Positions 1 through 58,509 of a DNA stretch of 64,000 nucleotides are shown here, piece by piece. Position 1 is the first letter of the stretch. Each line of letters starts with the position of its first letter. Source of the stretch: Tethya wilhelma (Eukaryota; Porifera; Demospongiae; Tethyida; Tethyidae); NCBI GenBank assembly GCA_964030475.1, contig CAXIPT010000002.1, forward strand, positions 19,811,010 through 19,875,009, written 5' to 3'. A program made the translations under genes and the position numbers. Below the pieces are notes generated by a model. The model did no database searches and was not told where the DNA came from. It saw only the letters and a list, made by a program, of their open reading frames with translations.

Positions 1-474
1 TGCAACAAATACACCAAATGTCACTGCAGCTATTGACAATCCGGCTGAAATGTTACCATATAACTTTCCTTTAGCATAACGACCTTGCTTAGAGGCTTCC
101 TTTGACTGTACATAGAATAATTAACAGTAAATAGTAATAGCTTTGATATAGAGCAACCACACCCAATTCTACTATACTTGACTCACCATAATTGACAGCA
201 CAACAGCAGGGAGGGTACAGAATAGAGTTAATATGTTGAAGAACCCACACAGTCCTGCCACTACCACGGACAACACCAAGTAGCTGTGTGGGTGGAGGCT
301 AGGTGGAAGACCAAGTTGTGCTACAGCATAATTGGGCTGCTGAAGCCCACTAGTTGGCTGTTGAGCAGTTAAAGGCTACAGAATTTAATACAAGAGTAGC
401 AACAATTACAATATATATAAATCAATAGAATTTACCTTCTCTTGTAAATCGTGGTTACCATTAGCACTCATCAT
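1..474 (-). CDS. CD225/dispanin (IFITM-like) gene A, 3' end outside window
   Basis: Small two-pass membrane protein of the CD225/dispanin family, whose best-known members are the interferon-induced IFITM proteins and the proline-rich transmembrane (PRRT) proteins. Exons read on the minus strand: 474-436, 375-187 and 105-1 (cut by the window edge). The first exon gives 13 residues beginning MMSANGNH. The second carries the conserved block LPPSLHPHSYLVLS followed by a hydrophobic stretch with GLCGFFNILTL. The third starts SKEASKQGRYAKGKLYGN and enters the second membrane segment. Exon number and phases (0/0) match the two downstream paralogues exactly, so this is one unit of a tandem array. The family assignment rests on the loop-plus-TM pattern. 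An antiviral role should not be assumed, since many dispanins have none. Confidence 0.82.
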
Positions 475-646
475 GCAATGTTGTTCAAAGTTTATCACAT
501 GAAAAGGCTAAAATATGCGGCGCGGATTACATGCGTGGGCATGGGCCGGATATCCGGATGTGCATTTCAGAGACATACATGCACTTATGATAGAAACACA
601 CACAGTCAGTACACAGTCTTGATGTGATAGTCAACTTGACAAGACA

Positions 647-1857
647 CTAAAGTCCCCAAGCATTCTGGCTACAAACTTCTTGACCAGTAAAGCCAGCACA
701 TGTGAAGAGCCATGTTGCAAAGAACACACCCAGTAGAATTCCAAAGAAAGCAAACACCAGTCCAAACAGTAATGCACTCATTGTTAGTCCAGCTGCAATA
801 TTGCCGTACATCTTTCCTTGAGAATACTTCCCCTTTCTCGAGGAGAAGAACGACTGGAAAAAGAGAGAGATGTGAAGTATACATGCACTGAATTCACCAT
901 TTTTCTACTATCTACTGATAAGTCTTACCAGAATAGAGAATGTGATGCCAGGAATAGAACATATCAACGAGAGTATGTTCATGAAACCACAGAATATAGA
1001 GATGATGATGGAGAATCCCAAAAAGCTGTGCGGGTAAAGCTTAGGAGGGAGACCAGACTGTGCCACCACATACTGAGGAGCAATTGCATTGGGAAGGGGT
1101 GCATAGCCTGTGCCACCACTGCCAGTGGCATAATTAGGGGGATAGTCTGCAAACTGTGAGAAAACTTATTATTATGGCTAGAACAGTGAAAGTAAGGATC
1201 AAGAGCATATACAGTGTGTAGCCAATGCACTACATGACAGTGGAGTAGGAACTATTTTGACATTGGGGGGGCCAAGCAATGAAGCAGGTAGCTTTTTTTG
1301 TCTTGTATGCTGGACTATAGCCCAGATCTTAGAATTGACTAAATGGTTTTATCACAGAGCAGCAAATCTAGGGGGGTCTGGGGGCATGCCCCCCCAGAAA
1401 ATTTTTGAAATTTTGGGTAATTTTGGTGAAATCTGGTGCATTCTGTAATTATAACATCTTTTATACCACAAACCAGAGTTCTGCTGTATGTTTCCTTTTG
1501 CTTCTCCCTACATTTATGGCCAGCCATAACTTTGCCACCCCATTATTGGGGGGGGCCAGGCCCCTCTAGCAAAAATACTGGGGGGGCCAGTGGCCCCCCT
1601 GGTTCCTACTCCACTGCATGATCAAAGCATAATGATGTGGTTGGTTGTACACATGCTATGTAGATCTGCTTATCTGTGGTTAGTTAGTAAAATATTTTTA
1701 TGGTCACTGCGCGCACTTTAATTATTATGACGTCATTTGTCAAAGCGCATGCCATAAGTTCACTCACTGACTCCGTTTGTTGTCGATTATGATACACTGT
1801 AAGAAGCTAGTAACAGTTTACCTGATCTTGATTCTTTGCCTCTTCTTGTTTCTCCAT
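647..1857 (-). CDS. CD225/dispanin (IFITM-like) gene B
   Basis: Complete three-exon paralogue: 1857-1822, 1153-929 and 853-647, 156 codons including TAG, about 155 residues. It starts MEKQEEAKNQDQ. Exon 2 holds a Gly/Pro/Tyr-rich cytoplasmic lead and then LPPKLYPHSFLGFS entering the first membrane segment (SIFCGFMNILSLICSI). Exon 3 begins SFFSSRKGKYSQGKMYGN, then a second hydrophobic segment rich in Phe and Leu and a short tail ending NAWGL. Exon 3 is 207 nt, exactly as long as the homologous exon of gene C, which supports descent by tandem duplication. Intron 1 is long (668 bp) because a hAT-like MITE sits inside it. Family membership is well supported; the cellular role is unknown. Confidence 0.85.
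1238..1616. mobile_element. hAT-like non-autonomous element (MITE)
   Basis: The 379-bp segment is bounded by a perfect 15-bp terminal inverted repeat, CAGTGGAGTAGGAAC at 1238-1252 and its reverse complement at 1602-1616. It is flanked on both sides by CATGA (1233-1237 and 1617-1621), a 5-bp target-site duplication. The terminus fits the hAT pattern YARNG. G-runs (ggggggcc) occur just inside both ends. No transposase is encoded. It lies in intron 1 of the second CD225 gene. Confidence 0.8.
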
Positions 1858-2083
1858 GGCTGAAAGGCCCACAACACTCAGTGGGCAACAGTTGTGACAC
1901 ACCCACGGATATTAAAGGAAGTAAGCGCACTTAATTAATAAAAGGCGTGGCTCAACACTTTACACCATTGATGCTCTTATCTTTATTTATGTTAACAGCT
2001 AATTATGTATATATGACATGACATTAATTGTTATGATATTAATTTTGGTGAATGAAGATCAAAAATAAAAATATCAAAGGATG

Positions 2084-2703
2084 TCACGATAATGGACGTC
2101 CAGCAAAATCTTGAGTACATCGTCCTGAACCACAGTACAAGAAATAAGAACCGTAGATTGATATCCCAACAAGGATTCCTACAAAGGCAACCACCATTCC
2201 AAACAACAAACCACCAATTGAAAACCCAGCTGCAGTATTACCAAGGAGTTTCCCATAGTAATACTTTCCTCTCTTGTTGTGGTAAAATGACTACAAAAGA
2301 ATAACAATTATCATTTTAAAACAAATGGAGCTAAGCTAATCTAGCTTACCATAATTGATAGGGAAACTGCAGGAATTGAGCAAATCAAGGTCAAAATGTT
2401 GAAGAATCCACAAAATATAGCAGTGAAAGTCGAAAACAACAAGTAATTGTGTGGATAGAGACGGGATGGGAGTCCAGCCTGGGCAACAATGTAGGTAGGT
2501 TGTGGCTGAGGAGCTGTCCACATCACTGGACCAGCAGTATACTGTGGAGGAGCAGCTTTAGACTGGATAGAAAGAAGGTCCACTTGAGCCTAAATCAATT
2601 ATTATTTCTATAGCTATTTGGTAAATCACTATAACTTATTAAGGTTATATAAAAGACTACATCCTGGTCACTTGACATTCAAACTGACCTGTTCTTCATC
2701 CAT
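2084..2703 (-). CDS. CD225/dispanin (IFITM-like) gene C
   Basis: Third and most upstream member of the tandem array: exons 2703-2689, 2589-2350 and 2290-2084, 154 codons including TGA, about 153 residues. It starts MDEEQ and has a Pro/Gln-rich cytoplasmic lead containing WTAPQPQPTYIVAQ. The motif LPSRLYPHNYLLFS opens the first membrane segment (AIFCGFFNILTLICSI). SFYHNKRGKYYYGKLLGN is the conserved cytosolic loop, followed by a second glycine- and valine-rich membrane segment. The C-terminal tail contains CGSGRC, two cysteines that could be lipidated in this family (inference). All three genes share intron phases and the exon-3 length of 207 nt where visible. Confidence 0.87.
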
Positions 2704-2959
2704 TTTCTGTTTTTTAAAAAAATCCTTCAGTTCTGTTCATATCTAGACTCAAAATGAGCAGCTCAACTTCTCATCAACAACTAACCTGTGAGCTGACAGG
2801 GTCAGAGGATTAAGGTCAAAGGATGTTATTGCACTGCATCATGAATACCAGACAAGCATTTGTAGCTGTACTATTACTAGTCTAACTGTCTGTAATATAG
2901 ATGACAATGTTCCACTTTTGAACAAAAAATTATCATGATTTAAAAACAGACAACAACAA

Positions 2960-3475
2960 TCATCTACAGCAATCACTACGGATACACAGTGGTTTTAGAG
3001 CAGTATAAAATGTTCCAATTGCTGCTCCTAAAAACAACAAACAAAACAGCACCCCGGGTACAAAAAAGGGAACAGTGCCTCCCAGTGCAAGACACAACAG
3101 TATCTGTGCAGCTAGTTTAGCTGGGATCCCTAGGAAATAGAGTATGGTCACCATCAGAGACATGGATTGGTGCGGGAAGCAAATGGGCTTGTAGTCTTCA
3201 TCATAGAATATTATACATAGTCCACCACCGGCTCTGTTGCCAATGTCGTCATCCAATTCATCATTGAGTCTCATCCAGATGTAGGTGATGAGATAAATGA
3301 TCCAGTAGACAGCTGAGACCAGGTCAAAGATGAACAGAGGAATGAATACCAGGAACCAGTTCCAGTTGGTCGCAGCCACCACTTTACTCAAGAGGAGCAC
3401 TCCAAATAGAGTATGGAGACCGTAGATTAGGCTCAATCTGGTGTATACTAGTGCAGCCTTTGAATAGAAACCCAT
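2960..3475 (-). CDS. TMEM185/TMEM60-like multipass membrane protein
   Basis: Intronless 171-residue ORF with at least four hydrophobic segments. The core NWNWFLVFIPLFIFDLVS (about residues 36-55) is the hallmark of the transmembrane Fragile-X-F-associated family (TMEM185A/B, TMEM60), whose molecular function is poorly known. An acidic cytosolic-looking loop (NDELDDDIGNRAGG) separates the first and second pairs of segments, and the C-terminus is short and Cys/Arg-rich. The length lies between TMEM60 and TMEM185. ATG 3475 is the first in-frame start and lies 232 bp from the divergent DsbA-like gene. The family call is good; orthology to one human gene is not resolved. Confidence 0.75.
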   Translation of the reverse strand: MGFYSKAALVYTRLSLIYGLHTLFGVLLLSKVVAATNWNWFLVFIPLFIFDLVSAVYWIIYLITYIWMRLNDELDDDIGNRAGGGLCIIFYDEDYKPICFPHQSMSLMVTILYFLGIPAKLAAQILLCLALGGTVPFFVPGVLFCLLFLGAAIGTFYTALKPLCIRSDCCR

Positions 3476-3707
3476 GGCGAGTCACTTCACTGCTTCAGAT
3501 GTTCTTTGTGTTGAGTCAGCAGTCCATGTTTATGTCACATGACAGGAAACTTCAAAATAGCCCCACCCACCAGCCAGGACATTGAGCTGAGTTGTATAAA
3601 GCATGCGACATTGTTTGTACCTCTACTGCTGCAGATCATCATCTAGACGCCATTTGTTGCAAATTGTTAGATCTCTGAGCTTCACAGCAACCACATCTGC
3701 CCGAGAA
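3476..3707. promoter_or_regulatory. Shared intergenic region of a divergent gene pair
   Basis: Only 232 bp separate the start codons of the TMEM185-like gene (-) and the DsbA-like gene (+), so both 5'UTRs and promoters must lie here. A TATA-like 'gtataaa' is present near 3595. Bidirectional promoter function is inferred from spacing alone. Confidence 0.45.
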
Positions 3708-46073: not shown

Positions 46074-49002
46074 ATGCCTATGTCGGATGTCTTTCAGTAT
46101 GTTAGGACACAATACGAAGAGAAACCTCGTCCAAAAGAAGAAGCTGGACCAGGACACAGAAAGGTAGCTATGAACCTGTCTGCACTGCACTAGCTGCATA
46201 CTATACACGTACACTTTATTTTCCATTACGTAGGCTCTTGCTCGAAACAATGAATGGTTCATTACAGAGCTCCCTGACAAGTGGCTGGTAGATTATGAGA
46301 GGCGAAAGAAACATCAGCATACAGGCTACTTTGCCCACAATTATCTTCCATACAAAACGTTTGCCAACTTGAAACACACTGACGTTTACGACTTGTTAGG
46401 AGAGCACTTGGGGATCAGTGTGAACAAGCAATTTGCGTTTATGACTCTACAGAACTACAGCAAAAGTCAAGGGCATAATATTCAAAACGAGGAATCACAA
46501 AGCTCTTCCAGTGAACCACCCAACACAGTATGTCAAAGGGTTACATTATATTATTATGTTCAAATGTTGCAAATCTTTTGCAGATTGTTGTAGTCTGTGA
46601 AGGAAGCAAAGCTCGTCAATCTTTACCTCCTTCAAGAAATGCCGGCTTGTCAAGCATCAGGACTGCTCTCAGCTCTGACAAGAGGCTCATGAGAGACACG
46701 GCAGCTGGGAAGTCATTTAGAGAATCACTGTTGACCGAGGAAAGACGTGGGGTAAGCAGCATGCACATTGGACACATATGTGCCTGCTTTCTCTCTGACA
46801 CAGCTACGTATTATACATGAGCATATATTATCATACTACACAGAGATATCTTCAAAACATGAGAGCTGCCAAACCAGTTGAAGATAGATCTGGTGCTCAA
46901 GTTTTTGTGCACAATCCTTCCAGCTTTTTGTCTCCAATGGTGTTCACTGCCTCAAGCAAGACTTGCTTCTTTCTTCCATCAATGACTGCTCGCTCTACTG
47001 AGTCTCCTGGAAGAGGAAACCAGGGGGAAAGGAGTGAGTGCAAAGGCACCACGGGAGGTCAAGAGGATGATGATGAAGAAGAGAATGGAAAACCAATCAA
47101 AACTGTTGGACCAAACCTCTATGTTGCATTGGCTGCAGCTCATTTCAAACTTCACCATGGAAACAATCACTCAAATGAACTGCACACAAAGAAGAAACAG
47201 GACATAAGGTTTGAGCACTGTTCATGTTGACAACAACTTATCACGCATATTATTTTATCTGCTGGTGCATCCAATCCTTCTATCTTGTTTAGAACTCAAC
47301 AAAAGAGATTGTGTATGGCCAAGTTGAAGTCGGTGTATGCAATCCTTTGCTGTCTACATAACATCAAAACAAAGGACCTCAGGAGTAGAGTACGGAAACT
47401 TATAATAATTGTAAAGTCATGCAGTAACCACTAAACTCTTCCCATCTTGTTTTAGGAACCACTCTCATATGTGACTATCAAAGCCATTGCCGCAAAACCC
47501 CTTCACACTCTGAACAAGGACTACCCCGGCACCCATCACCATCATCACCATGTCGACCTCCTCCACCATCACTCCCCCACGGCCACCCCTCACCATCGTC
47601 TCACCTCACACACCCACAACTCTACAGAGGCAGTACTCCACGGCCATCAGCGCCCGATTCACAGCAACCTCCATTATCATCAGAACAAGCACGGTCCCTT
47701 GAGGTACAAGAATTTTCACTACATCTGTGATACCTGTAGACACAGTGTAACACACTCTGATGACTTTACACAGGCATGTCAAAGTTCACCATGAGCCTCA
47801 GATTGAGACGTGGGAAGAGGTACTTGAACTGCACCGACTCTCCAACAAGAGTGAACTCAAATCTCCACCAGAGCCCATGAGCAATGCCAACATCCATGGC
47901 GGCCAGGTTGTCAAAACCCAGAGGATTCTCCCTCCATGGCAGAGACAGCTCATCTTTGTGGACAATAAAGAGGAGAGCTTGTAAGTTTGAAAGTTTAGAA
48001 GAAGAAAAAAAAAGAGCTGGCAGTGGTGGGATTCGAACCCACGCCATCGAAATGACTGGTGCCTTAAACCAGCGCCTTAGACCGCTCGGCCACACTACCT
48101 CTTGCTGTGTGTAAGGTGATTTTGATGAAGTTTTTTTCCTCTCCTTTTGTTTATTGCAGAAAGAAAGACCCAGCACAGAAGCTGTGTGAGTGTATAGAAT
48201 CATTTCACCACTTTAAGAGCGAGACTTCTCAGCAAATAAAAACAGCACTCAAGGATCGAAAGAGGTTATTAATCCTAGTCACTAATGACTCAATTGGGAT
48301 TGAAATTCATTACAACTGTGAAACTGCATACAGTCAGATGGAGAAGCATTTGTCTAGCAAGCTGACCTTTCTAAAGCTTGGTGCCAACACAAAGGAGTGT
48401 CTGGAGGAAATGAGAGTAGGAGCTTATCGTTTAAAGAGGTTGGAGAGGGCAGAAGAAACAAGCAAACCAACTTGGTCAGTATGTTACTGTTAAAGATATG
48501 ATGGTTCCCACTCGAACTTGACCAGCTAGAGTATATAATGTGCATGTAGGTTTGTTCTTCTTGAAGATGAAGTGAAGAAGGTGTTTGGAGATGATGGCAG
48601 AGACAGAGCTGGTGCTAGCTTTCTAGAGAAGCTCAAGCAGTTCATTTTTGTTGACAACAATACTCTGCCTCATGTTGCTGTGAGTTTATAGCATGCATCC
48701 ACATACACTGAGCCACATAATCTTACACATAACTTTTATAGGAAAAGTTCTGCCTGCTTGTCATGTCCCTTCCAGTCTACCAACTAGCCAGACAGCCTGT
48801 GATCAGTGCAATGGAGGTACACTACATGCAGTCATACTTCAATCTCCATGTAATCTTCAATTTCTTTTTCATGCAGTTTGTCTTGGAGAGTGTTTTGAAG
48901 TTGCCTCCTAACTTGTTCTCCAAGCTGAGAGAGATGAGGGACCTTCCAGCTGTCACTAATGAACTAGCTTCTCCAGCGTATGTATTTGGTATGCTTGTTT
49001 GA
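46074..49002 (+). CDS. Unrecognised 685-residue protein, 11 exons
   Basis: Exons 46074-46163, 46234-46527, 46584-46751, 46844-47208, 47293-47332, 47456-47703, 47774-47980, 48160-48474, 48550-48679, 48742-48816, 48877-49002 total 2058 nt with continuous frame. I do not recognise the family. The N-terminus (MPMSDVFQYVRTQYEEKP, WFITELPDKWLVDYERRKK) is charged and conserved-looking. The middle is low-complexity, with an acidic stretch (GGQEDDDEEENGK) and a His-rich segment (THHHHHHVDLLHHH). The C-terminal 250 residues look like a helical globular domain (KLCECIESFHHFKSETSQQ, LLILVTNDSIGIEIHYN, FVLESVLKLPPNLFSKLREM). No signal peptide or TM is seen. Upstream lies an NRF1-like GCGCATGCGT at 45981-45990. 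One intron hosts an antisense tRNA-Leu gene. Confidence 0.8.
48018..48099 (-). tRNA. tRNA-Leu(AAG)
   Basis: 82-nt type II tRNA on the minus strand, without an intron. The acceptor stem GGTAGTG pairs with CACTGCC (one G-T wobble), followed by discriminator A. The A-box GTGGCCGAGCGGTC and B-box GGGTTCGAATCCC are intact. The anticodon stem CTGGT/ACCAG encloses loop TTAAGGC, anticodon AAG. The long variable arm and G at the D-loop positions fit Leu. It lies in the intron between exons ending 47980 and starting 48160 of the unrecognised gene, in opposite orientation. Confidence 0.96.
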
Positions 49003-50718: not shown

Positions 50719-50765
<47 letters not shown>

Positions 50766-52821
50766 GTGTGTGTGTGCGCGCTTGCATGAAATGATTACGT
50801 ATGCAGATGTGGGGATGGCATTTTCTTCAACAAACCTGGGCAAAGTCACATCTGGGTGCTTGTGGATCGAGTGACTCGAAAAATCGGACAACAGGAGCAT
50901 TAGGTTCACATTCAACCTGTGTACAGAAACAAACCACCATGCATGACAGGGCAAAGGATAGAATAGCTAATGCGCAGCTGTCACTATTGATACTGACCAG
51001 CCCAATGTGGCTGCAGAAGAAGGCCAAGAGCCAGAGCAAGATGAAGATACAGTAACGAATGAAACGCCGATTCTTCATGAGGTCGTTCATGCTGAGAAAG
51101 ATGGGAGAATGCAACACCTGATGGAAGGAGACAAAGTCAAATGCAATCATTATGACAAACGTACTGCACTAGATAACCTTTCAGTAAACCATAAACACAT
51201 GTCATTGAGCCTGAGTTAAGAGTAGCCTGGCTAGTACCTTGATCTTGTCCACTAAAGAGATGAAGGTGGCCATCGTGATGATGAGAGTGCATATGAGGTA
51301 GCAGATGTGGACGGAAACACGAGACCTTGGAAGAATGATGAGCTGGTTGATGTAGAACAAAATTTGAAGGGAGAGAAGACCGATCATGAAGAAGTGGGTC
51401 TGAGTGAACGGCTCTCGAACATACTGTGTGTGTGTGTGTGTGTGTGTATGTGTGTGTGCAAGTGTACATTACTTTGTGTTGCCCATACATACTTTGGCCT
51501 CAAGGTTAGTGTCCTTAAATCTCATGGAGAACCGATTGGCATACTGCTTCCACAGGCTCTTTGTGCTACTGTCAGTGATGGCCTCTTCCAGTCGACTCAG
51601 AAACTCTTTCTGTTTCTCCTCAAAGCCACTGTAAGTCTCCTCCGACCCGTTCTGCACTGTGTCCAACTCATAGGACTTCTCATTGCTGGAAGCACTTGGT
51701 TCAGACATGTCTGCCTCATCCTCTCCATTCTGTAATATAGTCACACATTAACAAAGGCACATGCTATAATAATGCCATAGGCAAATATATAGCACAGCAG
51801 GCCATTTCCAGCATGCCATATTTCTGATGTCTAGCTACTCCATTCGTTTGCTAACCTTGGAAGCAAAGCCAAGTGTGTCAAAGATATCCTTCACACCAAA
51901 TCTCCTCCTCTGTTCGTAGCTTCCCTCAAAGAAAGCCTGCTGTGGTATGGACATGCTCCTATTGGGGGTACGGGGGTCTTTGTAGTGGGGGAACATCGGG
52001 GATTCAATGGGGAGTGGTTCGATGCCCCCTGGAAGGGTGAGGGTCAAACTCTCTCGACTGATGTAACTAGTGCGGGGCGAAGGCAGCTCCAGACCAGAGT
52101 CAGTGGACAGGGCATCGTAGAAATCCTAACAGAGAAACATAGGTTATTCATAGTGGGTACTAAACAATATCCATCATGTAGTGTGTTGACACAACTCAAT
52201 AGAAAAATTGTTGTTGCAGGTAATAACCAGTCAAGTGTAGTGTTAAGCACAGCTGGCCACCATTCAACCACCACAAAGACTTCTAGGATTTCACGCTAGT
52301 ACAACTGGTGTTCTCCTAGGACTAAGGGATCCAGTCCCACATACATGCCTCCTTACCTTGGTTTCTTCCTCAGCTCTGCATGTCACAAAGTATGTGTGCA
52401 TGTCAGAGTCTTCCAAGAGTTTGTTCCGTGACTTCCCATCAGCAGGCACCACCTTGTAAGCACCGTTGAGAGCAGCTAGAGTGGCTTCACTAATGTGCAC
52501 CTTCCTACAAGTTGAAAGTAGAAGATAAACAGAGATTTCTAGTCAAACAAGAGGCCAATAAGATAGTAACATGAATGAATGCATGAGAGGCCCTCAAGAT
52601 TATAAATATAACTATAGGTCACTGCATGTATTTTGATGTACCCAGGTATGCCACCAGCTTCCATTGCATTGGCAAGAGTGACGGCATTAGACCAGACGTC
52701 AAACTGCCACTTCTTGAGCCCGATCAATCCACAGAGCACCGATCCAGTGTGGATACCAACACGCATGTCAAGATCATGTCCTGTCTCCTCAGCAACATGT
52801 CTGGAGTGAGAGTGATCATGC

Positions 52822-53284: not shown

Positions 53285-54868
53285 CATGCACTCAATGACA
53301 TTTCTCAGTATACTGTGCACACATAATGAATCAATGCATTGTGAACACATGCATGTTATTGTAGTTTGGATACTCATGTACACATACTTCAGCAAGGCAG
53401 TCAAATCTGGCAAAGAGTTCATTGAGCGTTCGAACCAGCTCCTGAGGTGACACTTTCGAAGAGAATGCCGTGAATCCTTTAATGTCGGCAAACAGGATGC
53501 TGCAAATTTGCAACATGGAGAGGAAATGAATGCATCTTGGTGTGACATGGCACCATTTCATTGAGCACAAAGCATTTACAATCATCTCACATCACTTGCA
53601 AAAACCCTGCACTCACCTGACATCCTCAAACCTTTTCATGTACAACTTGTGAAACTGCGGATTGTTGATGAGATCATGTGAGTGACTTCGCCTGTGGAGG
53701 TCATCCTGTATAGAGTGGGCTAGATCCCCAGGGAAAATGGACAGGAGCAGCTTCTCCTAAAACACACAAACCAGGAGAAAGAGACATGACAATGTTACTC
53801 ATAAGATACATTGAATCTTAGACAAGACTACTGGAAAACATGCAGTGGAGAGTGTGAGTGACTGCAGACACCCACTTTTCCCTGTCTTTAGAAAAATTCA
53901 GCTGCATCTGCACAATGGTGAATCTACTAATGTTTTGCATTTATTAAGGAATGGGTTTGATACTCTGAGACGTTCACCTGTCTTCCATTTGCTTGTTCAA
54001 TTTTGAGATGGGTGGACACACTTTTTTCAATCTCTTGAAACGCGATCAGTGCTAGTTTATTTGTCCTAACATGAACTATAGCACACATCAAAATTATACC
54101 AATCACCAGCAAGGAAGCAGCTAGCACCTAGAGCAAGTAGAAAAAACTCTTAACAAAATGCTCATGCTGTCCATACGATAAAGGCTCTAGAATGCAACTA
54201 TAAGCTATATAGATAGATACCTCATCATTGAAGGTTCGTTTGTAGAATTGGCCTAACACATTCGAAGAGATCAGAAACCAAATGAAAACTGAAATGATGA
54301 TGGAGCTCTGGAAGTAAATGGTGCTAACAAAAAGCAACAGCGAAACGTTGATGACAATATCAGGTATGTAGATGATGAACCGGGAAAAGACTGCTATCAC
54401 TAGCAGCATGAATGAAAATATCACGGCAACATGAAACCACTTCAGGATAAAGCGTCGCTTGAATGCTCGAACTATCAAATATACTGCATGATAGGTACCA
54501 AAGACAAAACTGAAATACTCTAAACGAATTGGAGGAAGGAGAAGACTACTTAGATCCAGGTTGTGCAACAGGAGCAGCTCCAATCGATGAGCAATGATTA
54601 CGAAAATGGAGTAGCAAACAATGGTGGAGAACATCGAGACAAGAGAGGAGTTGGTACTCCTCCTACGGTACACTGTGTAGACATCTCTCGACTCCTTGTA
54701 GATGAATGAGGTGGTAGAGTAGAGATTTCTTGGTGTCCAATTCAAGATAAAGTACGCAACATTTTTGAGTACTTCTTTTAGCATTTTGACTACTCTGAAA
54801 GACAATGGCTGGACACTTTTGAGTACTTTCTTTACCATTTTGACTACTCTGAAAGCCAATGATTTCAT
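49253..54868 (-). CDS. Membrane adenylyl cyclase (class III, two catalytic domains)
   Basis: Sixteen exons on the minus strand (54868-54221, 54127-53978, 53756-53617, 53499-53388, 53233-53106, 52800-52642, 52504-52357, 52125-51856, 51729-51493, 51423-51238, 51117-50998, 50916-50836, 50719-50603, 50253-50020, 49799-49557, 49417-49253), 3138 nt, 1045 residues. Order: first membrane bundle, C1 with [11 protein letters not shown] and LGDCYYC (both metal-binding Asp), [19 protein letters not shown], a linker, a second membrane bundle, then C2 with [24 protein letters not shown] (adenine-selective Lys), [15 protein letters not shown] (Asp plus the N..R pair) and [13 protein letters not shown]. The catalytic residues are complete, so it should make cAMP at the plasma membrane under G-protein control. 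One unresolved base (49384) falls in the last exon. A second N-terminal cassette lies upstream. Confidence 0.93.
50303..50485. mobile_element. Short TIR element (MITE)
   Basis: 183 bp in an adenylyl-cyclase intron. Left end gtatagaatgggaattttc; right end gaaaatttcccgatctac, then agtatag. These are inverted and of the same family as the element at 42238. Confidence 0.65.
50720..50780. repeat. (GT)n microsatellite abutting a cyclase acceptor
   Basis: On the cyclase strand this is (CA)n ending in 'acacag', directly at the 3' splice site of the exon starting at 50719. Confidence 0.95.
52826..52876. repeat. (GA)n microsatellite
   Basis: Plus-strand GA tract in the cyclase intron; on the cyclase strand it is a CT tract upstream of the exon starting at 52800. 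Confidence 0.95.
53236..53282. repeat. (GA)n microsatellite serving as polypyrimidine tract
   Basis: On the cyclase strand it reads (CT)n then cag, forming the entire polypyrimidine tract of the exon starting at 53233. Confidence 0.95.
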
Positions 54869-55107
54869 TGGCTTTAAGTATGATAGCACTTAACCACCTA
54901 CAAGTTTCACAGTCAGTATACACTATCACACCTTTCTTACCTAACAACAAAAGTGTCACTAAACTACAACTTCTGACAAAACTCACTGACTAGATGCGCA
55001 TGCACAAATGAGGAACAGGCAGCTATATCGCCAGGGAAAAGTGGGTGTCCCGTGAAACTAAACTTTAAAGTAACAATTTATCATCACATCAATTTTATAC
55101 AATGCAC

Positions 55108-55937
55108 CTGGTTCTTGCTCTCTTTCTCAATCTCCAAATGAGTGGACACACTCCTCTCAATTTTACCAAACGACAGTTGCTTTTCAGTTTGGTTCAGAAT
55201 GTGGACCAGCATGCAGATGATAATAAGACTCAGTTGGATGCACACAGTACTCATCAGCTGTGGTACATGCATGAAGAGGGGAAATGTGAAAGTAAAATAA
55301 ATGCAGTACATAATATGCATGCACATACCTCTTCACTTATTGTCGATTGACCAGTCACGAGAAGAATTTGGAAAATTTTCACAAGACACAGCACAATCGA
55401 GAATGAGAGAGTAAGGATTATGGAGCTCTGGAAGTAAATGGTAGCAATGAACAGTGTTGCAGCAAGTCCACTGGTTACCAGAGTGACAATATAGACATCA
55501 ACACCAAGAAGTAGGATATCGGTCTGAGCTACTCCAACAGTGATACACAGTAGTGAAACGACAGTAACTGGATGCACTCCTGATAGGGACAAGGATTTCC
55601 TCCTCCAACCAACCAATAAAATGTACATTATCACGTGGATTGTTCCAATGATAAAGAAAATGATGGGTGGTATCAGTAGCTGGAATGGTAAACGATGCAG
55701 TACCACAATGGGAGCTATTGACGTGAAGGATACAACCACAGAGTAGATAATGTACGTGAAGAACACGAGAAGAATGTAGGAATGAAGAATCCGTTGGAAA
55801 TAACTTCTGTAGACCCTTTTGGAGACTATGTTTTGATTCCTTGGTGTCCAGTAAAATATCCATATCAGCATTTGGATCACGTAACGTTTGAATTTTGTAA
55901 ACATATTTCCTGCACTCTGGTAAATATTGAAAGCCAT
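55108..55937 (-). CDS. Second N-terminal membrane cassette of the adenylyl cyclase
   Basis: Two exons (55937-55329, 609 nt; 55257-55108, 150 nt) encode 253 residues parallel to the first two exons of the downstream cyclase. Both carry a basic amphipathic start, an aromatic/basic WTPRN motif, about five or six membrane segments including TIYFQSSII, and a 150-nt second exon ending in IERSVSTHLEIEKE.. (the other copy reads [14 protein letters not shown]). Lengths and phases are the same, and the donor after 55108 is phase 0, so it could splice to the exon at 53756 in place of cassette B. It has no catalytic exons of its own before gene B. It is either an alternative first-exon pair or the head of a truncated duplicate. 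Confidence 0.8.
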
Positions 55938-56512
55938 TTTCAAACTTTACCATGCAGCAGCTACCACAGAAATAACCAATCCACCTCAGTTCAATCGTTT
56001 AAATATCACTCGATTCCATTACATTTTGTTGATATTGGGAAGTTTTCCATAATAGGGTCAAATAGCTGCAAATCATAGCTAGTTGGAGGCTAGCCTCGTT
56101 CCCAGGCCTGCATATTGCAAATTAGTGAAAATCTCTGGAAAATGATGGCCATCTCTAACCACGCCCACTGAAGCTACGCATGCGCACTATATGCATTAGC
56201 GAGCCGTGAACTGCGGTTGGGAACGAGGCCGATGTGGTTCAGTACAGCATTATATAGTAGAGCCTATACAGTGACACAAGCAAGCATTTTCCTGAATTTT
56301 GTTGGTTGTGACGGACTGTTGTGTGGAGAATTATGGAGCCATATGGAGAAGCCTACAGTGCGGATGAGCATAGATGGAAAGAGGTCAGTTCCAGGAAATA
56401 GACTACATCAGTGTTGCGGCCCATTGCTGCAGCATCACACATACAGCCACGAAAAAGATGCTTGCTTGTTTTTTCTATAAGCCACTAGTGAACCTTCATT
56501 TGTTTGGTACAG
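55938..56512. promoter_or_regulatory. Upstream region between cyclase cassette and Pumilio
   Basis: 575 bp. An NRF1-type ACGCATGCGCAC lies at 56176-56187. A small open exon (ATG 56343 to donor 56383) could be a Pumilio leader exon; spliced to the exon at 56513 it would run out of frame and stop, so it is a possible upstream ORF rather than the main start. Confidence 0.45.
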
Positions 56513-58509
56513 ATGTGTTGGAACCCTTGCCCTAATGAATATCCGCAAAGAAGTGGAGCTCCCCAGCAACCAACAGCAATGAGACAACCAGACCCAGTAA
56601 GAGAAAATCTTTTTTTCCCATGATAAATAGCTAAAACTTCATAAATTAAATGCGAATTCACAACAAGGCTTATTAACACCTAAGCTTATGGTTTGCATAG
56701 CTACATGTGACAGTTGGAGATGTGCATAATAATGCATGCACCTTGACACTATAATGTGCAGCATTGGAGTGAATGGTGTGTCCCTGAAGGTGCCAGCATG
56801 TTCGTTCCCCCAAGCCGCCATGGCAGCTGTCAGGTGGTGTTCAAACGACCGGTAAAAGCCAGAAACCGCAAGCAGGCGAATGGGGGGAAAAAGGATGCAC
56901 ACCGTGACAGTCCTTATTTGGAACAATTTTCACCTCTTCCTCACATCACTCAGCCTCCTCATGGCCTACTTGTTGCACTCGCTGGGCTTAAGCACCCAAT
57001 AGTACTCACGCTTCAGTCTATTCGTGGTCAATGTTTCGAATTAGCAGTTGATCAAAATGGATCTCGACTAATCCAGCAATTTATTGAGCAAGCTAGCAGT
57101 GAAGACAAGCACGCCGTCTTTGAGGAGATCCTTCCAGGAACTTTAAGATTGACAACCAATATTTTCGGGAACTACGTAATTCAAAAGTTCTTTGAGTTTG
57201 GGACACCTACTCAACAGCTTTGTCTACTCGAAAAACTTCAAGAGAACATCCTGGAACTTTCTAAAGGAGTCTATGGCTGCCGAGTGATACAGAAGGCCAT
57301 TGAATTTGTACCACCAGAAATGCAGGTAATCTGCATGTCAAATAATATACTGCTTTAGACTTTAAATTATTCTTAACATGCACCATCAGTGAATCAACAT
57401 ATTCTATAATAATTCTTCCTATACCATGTATACCAATGATATAGGCTGAGATTGTTGCTGAACTAGAAGGCCACATTGTAGAGTATGCAATGGAACAACG
57501 CGGCAATCATGTGATACAGAAATGCATTGAGTTTGTGGACCCAATACTCCTCAAGACAATGGTGCACTCGATCACTGGACACGTAAGCTATAAAGCATTG
57601 GGTTGTCACAAACCACCATTGGTTGCTAATCATAGATTATAATATAGCTCACACTATAATATCTGCTATAGCTAATGGTATCCATTAAAACCAAATGTTT
57701 TTGCTTTTTTTAAAAAAAGAAAATATTTTCTTCCATTTCTATTCTTGATTCAACCTATTAGGTGTTTGAGTTAGCTGTACATCCATTTGGGTGCAGAGTG
57801 ATTCAGCGTGTATTGGAGCGCTGTGGGAAAGAACTCACAGATCTAGTTCTGAAGGAACTATTGGAACACACACTCAAACTAGTGCAGGTATTTTCTAACA
57901 TCAACCAGTAATTTTTAGCCGCAGCTACACCTTAATGGAGGTGTTTAGACAAGCTTGCNNNNNNNNNNNNNNNNNNNNNNNNNNNNNNNNNNNNNNNNNN
58001 NNNNNNNNNNNNNNNNNNNNNNNNNNNNNNNNNNNNNNNNNNNNNNNNNNNNNNNNNNNNNNNNNNNNNNNNNNNNNNNNNNNNNNNNNNNNNNNNNNNN
58101 NNNNNNNNNNNNNNNNNNNNNNNNNNNNNNNNNNNNNNNNNNNNNNNNNNNNNNNNNNNNNNNNNNNNNNNNNNNNNNNNNNNNNNNNNNNNNNNNNNNN
58201 NNNNNNNNNNNNNNNNNNNNNNNNNNNNNNNNNNNNNNNNNNNNNNNNNNNNNNNNNNNNNNNNNNNNNNNNNNNNNNNNNNNNNNNNNNNNNNNNNNNN
58301 NNNNNNNNNNNNNNNNNNNNNNNNNNNNNNNNNNNNNNNNNNNNNNNNNNNNNNNNNNNNNNNNNNNNNNNNNNNNNNNNNNNNNNNNNNNNNNNNNNNN
58401 NNNNNNNNNNNNNNNNNNNNNNNNNNNNNNNNNNNNNNNNNNNNNNNNNNNNNNNNNNNNNNNNNNNNNNNNNNNNNNNNNNNNNNNNNNNNNNNNNNNN
58501 NNNNATGGC

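Follow-up and report, generated by a model that had tools for sequence, protein, structure and literature searches.

Two homologous cassettes for the first membrane domain (M1) of a transmembrane adenylyl cyclase, here called A and B, stand in tandem in front of a single catalytic core in the sponge Tethya wilhelma. The gene occupies 55937-49253 on the minus strand of the 64,000-nucleotide stretch that we analysed (the window) and follows the order M1-C1-M2-C2; both cassettes are intact and have in-frame joints to the core, and an inverted repeat with predicted pairing brackets cassette B. Judging from the sequence, we consider it rather probable that A and B are alternative M1 cassettes serving one core and that an RNA stem aids A in skipping B, with roles for promoter and stem that we infer. 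Our analysis confirms the structure of the two cassettes; their alternative use is likely, and the stem, known from one genome, is a strong lead.

Results

The preliminary description of this locus had placed two membrane cassettes of 253 and 266 residues before one set of catalytic exons, and its coordinates, lengths, motifs and phases all proved correct: A1 (609 nt) and A2 (150 nt) make 253 codons, and B1 (648 nt) and B2 (150 nt) make 266. A GT donor closes all four cassette exons, an AG acceptor precedes both A2 and B2, and every joint is in phase 0. The donors of both cassettes read in frame into the acceptor at 53756, as had been proposed, and on the sequence level A and B are thus 5' exons able to use one common acceptor in the same phase (Table 1). 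The A2 donor has a middling score of 5.95, with 6 of 15 other donors lower. Downstream, we rebuilt 14 exons from splice signals and reading frame, which yield C1, the C1b linker, a partial M2 and C2; this one C1-M2-C2 set lies 3' of both cassettes, in agreement with the single catalytic set described before.

Table 1. Exons of the cyclase gene and arms of the inverted repeat (window coordinates)
Feature	Position	Strand	Content
A1, cassette A exon 1	55329..55937	-	start codon, N-terminus, first five hydrophobic segments of M1
A2, cassette A exon 2	55108..55257	-	sixth hydrophobic segment, coupling helix KIERSVSTHLEIEKESKNQ, phase-0 donor CAG|GTGCAT
B1, cassette B exon 1	54221..54868	-	three candidate start codons in or beside a 49-nt tandem duplication
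B2, cassette B exon 2	53978..54127	-	last hydrophobic segment, coupling helix, phase-0 donor CAG|GTGAAC
First shared exon, start of C1	53617..53756	-	acceptor serves both cassettes in the gene model
Remaining C1 and C1b exons	53499-53388, 53233-53106, 52800-52642, 52504-52357, 52125-51856	-	Pfam PF00211
C1b/M2 exons	51729-51493, 51423-51238, 51117-50998, 50916-50836	-	M2, first half only
C2 exons	50719-50603, 50253-50020, 49799-49557, 49417-49253	-	open frame and splice signals; last exon with one N
Arm 1	55032..55049	-	GACACCCACTTTTCCCTG on the transcribed strand; 58 nt past the end of A2
Arm 2	53867..53884	-	CAGGGAAAAGTGGGTGTC on the transcribed strand; 110 nt ahead of the shared exon; perfect complement of arm 1

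The predicted protein belongs to the transmembrane adenylyl cyclase family by its C1, its C2 and its overall similarity. The class III catalytic domain model PF00211 (Guanylate_cyc) matches two stretches (Pfam, E 1.6e-113), the closest solved relatives of the B isoform are AC5 (8sl3, E 7.4e-166) and AC8 (8buz, E 1.3e-164), and with this isoform as query phmmer stretches cover both C1 and C2 of AC5, AC8 and AC9. The front end of the A isoform finds its best matches in two Amphimedon proteins, and among the best 120 of 7321 matches a profile search is led by Amphimedon, followed by Halichondria, a Stomoxys protein and Ephydatia. In C1, identity to Halichondria (153/225) is the highest among the four sponge cyclases compared. 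Metazoan cyclases of this family (AC8, AC5 and AC9, and the sponge 'type 2-like' enzymes of Amphimedon, Halichondria and Ephydatia) have the same C1, C2, M1 and coupling helix, whereas the gene described here has two M1 cassettes and, in the assembly, an incomplete M2.

Cassettes A and B are, by their sequences, homologous first membrane domains. They share 75 of 240 aligned residues (31%), with a global alignment score of 251.6 against 10.3 +/- 13.2 for shuffled sequences (maximum 58.2 in 1000 shuffles), about 18 standard deviations away. Hydropathy shows six peaks in A and four above the same threshold in B. The Pfam M1 model AC_N gives B 14.6 bits against a cut-off of 30.9 and does not list the A isoform, a shortfall that fits rapid divergence of M1. 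A structure model of exon A1 alone was poor (mean pLDDT 60.1) and matched no PDB entry at E up to 0.001, and a search with the M1 of cassette B by itself returned no homologue at E up to 10 among 4090 candidates. Among the best candidate places scored in the genome we found no other copy of cassette B and one weak match to cassette A (position 19841838 of contig C1, E 0.39). At the start of cassette B, a tandem duplication of 49 nt (90% identical, 54759-54861) repeats FRVVKM.K.VLK and adds start codons.

The duplication that gave rise to A and B appears old, as silent sites are near saturation. Third codon positions of the two cassettes are 36% identical, and the dN/dS comparison that the preliminary description had proposed gives dN 0.70 and dS 2.67 by NG86 and 0.67 and 1.62 by LWL85, with a maximum-likelihood dS that runs off to 14. 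Identical codons are used at 35 of the 75 common residues, compared to 28.4 expected under independent codon choice. We do not claim a conversion tract in the near-identical DNA of the shared TIYFQSSII motif, for which the probability of at least 8 of 9 same codons is about 0.002 with the motif chosen post hoc. Despite the old divergence both frames are open: in simulations with substitutions only, no indels and no selection, 400 runs at each level of change left the frame intact 45 times at 0.1 changes per site, 7 times at 0.2, twice at 0.3 and never at 0.5.

Compared to four other sponge M1 domains, A and B are about equally similar, with identities of 59/229 for A and 64/223 for B, 59/221 and 62/236, 44/168 and 47/174, and 61/234 and 57/243, and their mutual score exceeds that of either with any of the four. 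In a tree of M1 sequences, which includes a Halichondria model lacking the start of M1, the branches of A and B have lengths of 0.91 and 0.94, and internal supports (46 and 35) are too low to date the duplication relative to the split from Halichondria or Ephydatia.

The coupling helix between M1 and C1, which has been termed a cyclase-transducing element (PMC9552081), is better kept in A than the rest of the cassette. The last 22 residues of A are identical to those of two Amphimedon proteins at 13/22 and 12/22 positions versus 43/203 and 40/203 in the rest of A (Fisher p 0.0003 and 0.0007); the corresponding values for B are 10/22 and 11/22 versus 41/203 in both cases, and A and B share 12 of these 22 residues. 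The two close Amphimedon proteins show no such contrast when compared with each other (13/22 versus 119/220). A kept helix is what one would expect of a cassette that is still coupled to a cyclase domain. With its intact frame, a similarity to other sponges near that of B and its coupling helix, cassette A shows no sign of decay in its sequence.

These observations bear on the main alternative, also raised in the preliminary description, that A is a truncated tandem duplicate, what remains of the 5' part of another cyclase gene after loss of its catalytic exons, which would be silent or encode an M1-only protein such as a dominant-negative partner of B. Reading past A2 reaches a stop after only 7 codons, as a truncated gene might, and N-terminally truncated AC8 proteins have been reported to act as dominant negatives (PMC11971047). 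A possible remnant of exon 3 lies 3' of A2 (17/19 nt, 55022-55040), but it is weak: shuffled sequences average 21.1 and reach its score of 31 in 11 of 2000 cases, and of 1014 overlapping tile-and-strand comparisons in the window 24 do as well, so we do not claim it. An M1-only relic would have no evident need for the coupling helix that A keeps, and A has diverged about as far as B. Neither AATAAA nor ATTAAA occurs between A2 and B1, but the same is true of the 3' flank that we searched.

On contig C25, at 256141-256730 (L040 3641-4230), lies a decayed copy of the cyclase gene in which shared exons 4, 5, 8 and 9 are represented in part, along with introns. Its three longer pieces are 82-90% identical to the cyclase gene, rearranged, with exon parts gone and, by eye, frames broken. 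This is how an unselected copy of the cyclase gene looks in this genome, and the state of cassette A differs from it, which also speaks against a truncated duplicate. Taken together, we regard a relic as rather unlikely. Even so, cassette A likely originated as a tandem duplicate whose own catalytic exons were lost, and alternative use is its likely present state; one reading concerns origin and the other present use, so the two possibilities named in the preliminary description are compatible.

A second cyclase gene (C9) supports the reading of A and B as alternative cassettes in another way. Its acceptor before C1 lies at the same place, on a codon boundary directly before GAC AAG CTC (DKL), so the M1/C1 joint looks modular and a natural site for exchange of M1. 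By eye, this paralogue has a single M1 in the 9 kb examined.

The preliminary description was right about one catalytic exon set and did not see that the assembled M2 is about 100 residues short. Amphimedon and Halichondria have, from CDFA up to the segment ahead of C2, a stretch with the last M2 spans that is absent here, and the junction is a 116-nt (CA)n-rich intron (50720-50835) between the exons 50916-50836 and 50719-50603. Queries from Amphimedon and Halichondria, weak for such diverged sequence, did not recover the missing half of M2 in the window or the genome; a weak match at the right place was limited to the end of the query that overlaps the next exon (E 0.013 in the window search, E 0.5 with Halichondria). 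Three M2 spans would put C2 on the wrong side of the membrane, which raises the suspicion of an assembly collapse or a deletion allele, and the gap is probably one of these at the (CA)n-rich intron. The cyclase allele as assembled may be non-functional. The database model of the Ephydatia muelleri protein (P0123) also lacks most of M2, and more, in what may be a prediction error.

The short M2, lying exactly at a (CA)n-rich intron and with its missing stretch not found elsewhere, invites the explanation that two complete cyclase genes were collapsed or misjoined into the present locus, or that A comes from another allele. This is improbable in our view. The A2-B1 interval, at 239 nt, has no simple repeat by eye, and a gene with so divergent an M1 would be expected to have catalytic exons that differ too much to be collapsed. 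The weak match to cassette A elsewhere in the genome has none of the listed catalytic places beside it.

Absent from the preliminary description is an inverted repeat that brackets cassette B, a perfect 18-nt pair that is the longest inverted repeat reported in 53600-56300. The arms are complementary at 18 of 18 positions, compared to 14 at most in 5000 shuffled pairs of the intervals. A search of the 124.6-Mb genome allowing up to 2 mismatches placed the arm sequence exactly at two places, both at the cyclase locus, and with 2 mismatches at three more; a reversed control pattern found three places. When we folded the 1,391-nt segment that runs from A2 to the shared exon, a calculation that leaves out proteins and co-transcriptional order, all 18 arm pairs formed with probabilities of 0.90-1.00 and were contained in both the minimum-energy and the centroid structures, with a duplex energy of -36.9 kcal/mol. 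By prediction, the looped exons are thus flanked by stable complementary intronic arms, with 18 of 18 pairs. With two exact genomic places only, and no target duplication around the arms by eye, we do not take the repeat for a transposon end. We likewise rejected the start of the shared exon as a competing partner for arm 2, since shuffles paired as well in 244 of 3000 cases and tile-and-strand comparisons in 68 of 1764 (tiles over the arms included).

We gauged how unusual such a repeat is against 3827 overlapping interval pairs from the window and from 20 pieces of 10 kb spaced along contigs C1 and C2. Intervals of the same geometry held at least 18 complementary nucleotides in 16 of the 3827 pairs, in four places (L027, L031, L036 and window 41340). 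Across 261,830 bases there are 109 inverted repeats of at least 18 nt within 2 kb (low-complexity arms excluded, the cyclase pair included), most of them in one cluster in L027, a dense array of long inverted repeats at 200-3650 with common AGGTTACCTAGGTTTCCCATGG. By our reading six others are isolated, with 500-2000 nt spacing; copy number was determined for four, of which one is unique and the others occur many times, at 18, 133 and 97 places with at most 2 mismatches. The unique one is a perfect 26-nt pair at position 1008949 of contig C1 (L018 8949-9746), 772 nt start to start, with no other copy at up to 2 mismatches. Unique inverted repeats therefore arise in this genome without known function. 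As a rough estimate, such a pair would fall in exactly these two intervals by chance about 1e-4 to 1e-3 of the time, which favors a functional stem, though without proving one from a single genome.

The stem would also ease an unusual splice. The intron from A2 to C1 measures 1,351 nt, compared to 69-349 nt for the other 16 introns of the model, and with the stem formed 58 + 110 nt (about 170 nt) would lie outside it, within the normal intron range. With no stem, acceptors nearer to A2 than that of C1 would be open to it; the one at 54897 (score 8.7) would stop the frame after 7 codons. The B2 acceptor at 54127 scores 7.6 (it was itself in the training set of the scoring) and, joined to A2, would add a seventh membrane segment. 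A mixed or combined use, in which A1 joins B2 or A2 joins 54871 to include both cassettes, would have both joints in frame, but we give it little credence: in A transcripts the inverted repeat puts B2 inside the loop, the acceptor at 54871 has a lower score (4.9), and the intact helix of A2 would be idle in an A1-B2 form.

Discussion

We propose that the locus arose by an old tandem duplication of the cyclase's first two exons and would now be read in two ways. In a transcript that starts upstream of A, the arms would pair in the pre-mRNA and loop out B1 and B2, and A2 would be spliced straight to the shared C1 exon, giving an enzyme with M1-A. A transcript that starts between arm 1 and B1 would contain no arm 1 and form no stem, and B2 would be spliced to the shared exon, giving M1-B. 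Both isoforms would keep a coupling helix and the same catalytic halves, with the difference limited to the first membrane bundle; the start site would pick the cassette and the stem would enforce the choice. This model would entail expression of both cassettes, two start sites, action of the stem and altered membrane-borne regulation. That the start site alone sets which of two interchangeable membrane receptor domains is used, with only the upstream transcript holding both arms, is conceivable but appears doubtful to us. The swappable first membrane bundles put forward in the preliminary description fit the sequence, given an undecayed A with its helix kept, the C9 acceptor and the inverted repeat; alternative promoter use and changed membrane sensing, the other parts of that proposal, may accompany them.

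Pairing of this kind has precedents. Human exons that lie in the loop between paired conserved regions are reported to be less included, and such pairings are depleted around exons (PMC8052449). The docker-selector exons of Dscam are described as tandem duplicates with long-range intronic pairing able to loop one out, and tandem exon duplication has been proposed as a route to such pairings (PMC6071210). The sponge locus differs in having one significant pairing and no competing selectors, with 5'-terminal two-exon cassettes as its units. We did not find a docker-selector arrangement, with one docking site and two or more selectors, at the cyclase locus, where arm 2 pairs with arm 1.

Alternative promoters are known from other cyclase genes. 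Adcy3-at, a cold-induced form of AC3 in mouse brown fat, is reported to come from an alternative promoter that alters the N-terminal membrane half of the enzyme (PMC11971047); there the first membrane block is removed (146 residues replaced by 28), whereas the sponge gene offers a second complete M1. Dictyostelium acaA has three alternative promoters on one cyclase gene (PMC2952602, PMC4739590), and the opening lines of these abstracts state no exchange of membrane domains. Among the matches listed in a search of the open-access literature, no title or beginning of an abstract described an alternative whole M1 in a cyclase.

The role of the cyclase membrane bundles is debated, and ligand sensing has recently been argued (PMC11606603, PMC12414865). 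In an engineered mAC5(membr)-AC3(cat) exchange, the lipid or ligand response is reported to move with the membrane domain (PMC11606603); that swap replaced TM1 and TM2 together, whereas the sponge gene would change M1 alone and by a natural choice of RNA. Chimeras of AC5 and AC6 with swapped transmembrane subdomains were effectively catalytically dead according to a review (PMC12414865). This argues against M1 being freely exchangeable, and a single M2 would need to accommodate both sponge M1 domains. If our reading holds, one gene would make two differently sensing cyclases with constant catalysis and would offer a test in vivo of the role of M1. Should the membrane domains of these cyclases be receptors, this would be a natural receptor swap on a fixed effector, and the gene would be a further example of whole-domain use decided jointly by the choice of promoter and by long-range pairing of RNA.

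The cyclase gene has two recognizable neighbors. Cassette A stands head-to-head with a Pumilio-repeat gene on the plus strand (56747-57355, PF00806, E 4.1e-30), and a tRNA-Leu with anticodon AAG lies on the minus strand at 48018-48099, about 1.2 kb downstream of the cyclase stop codon.
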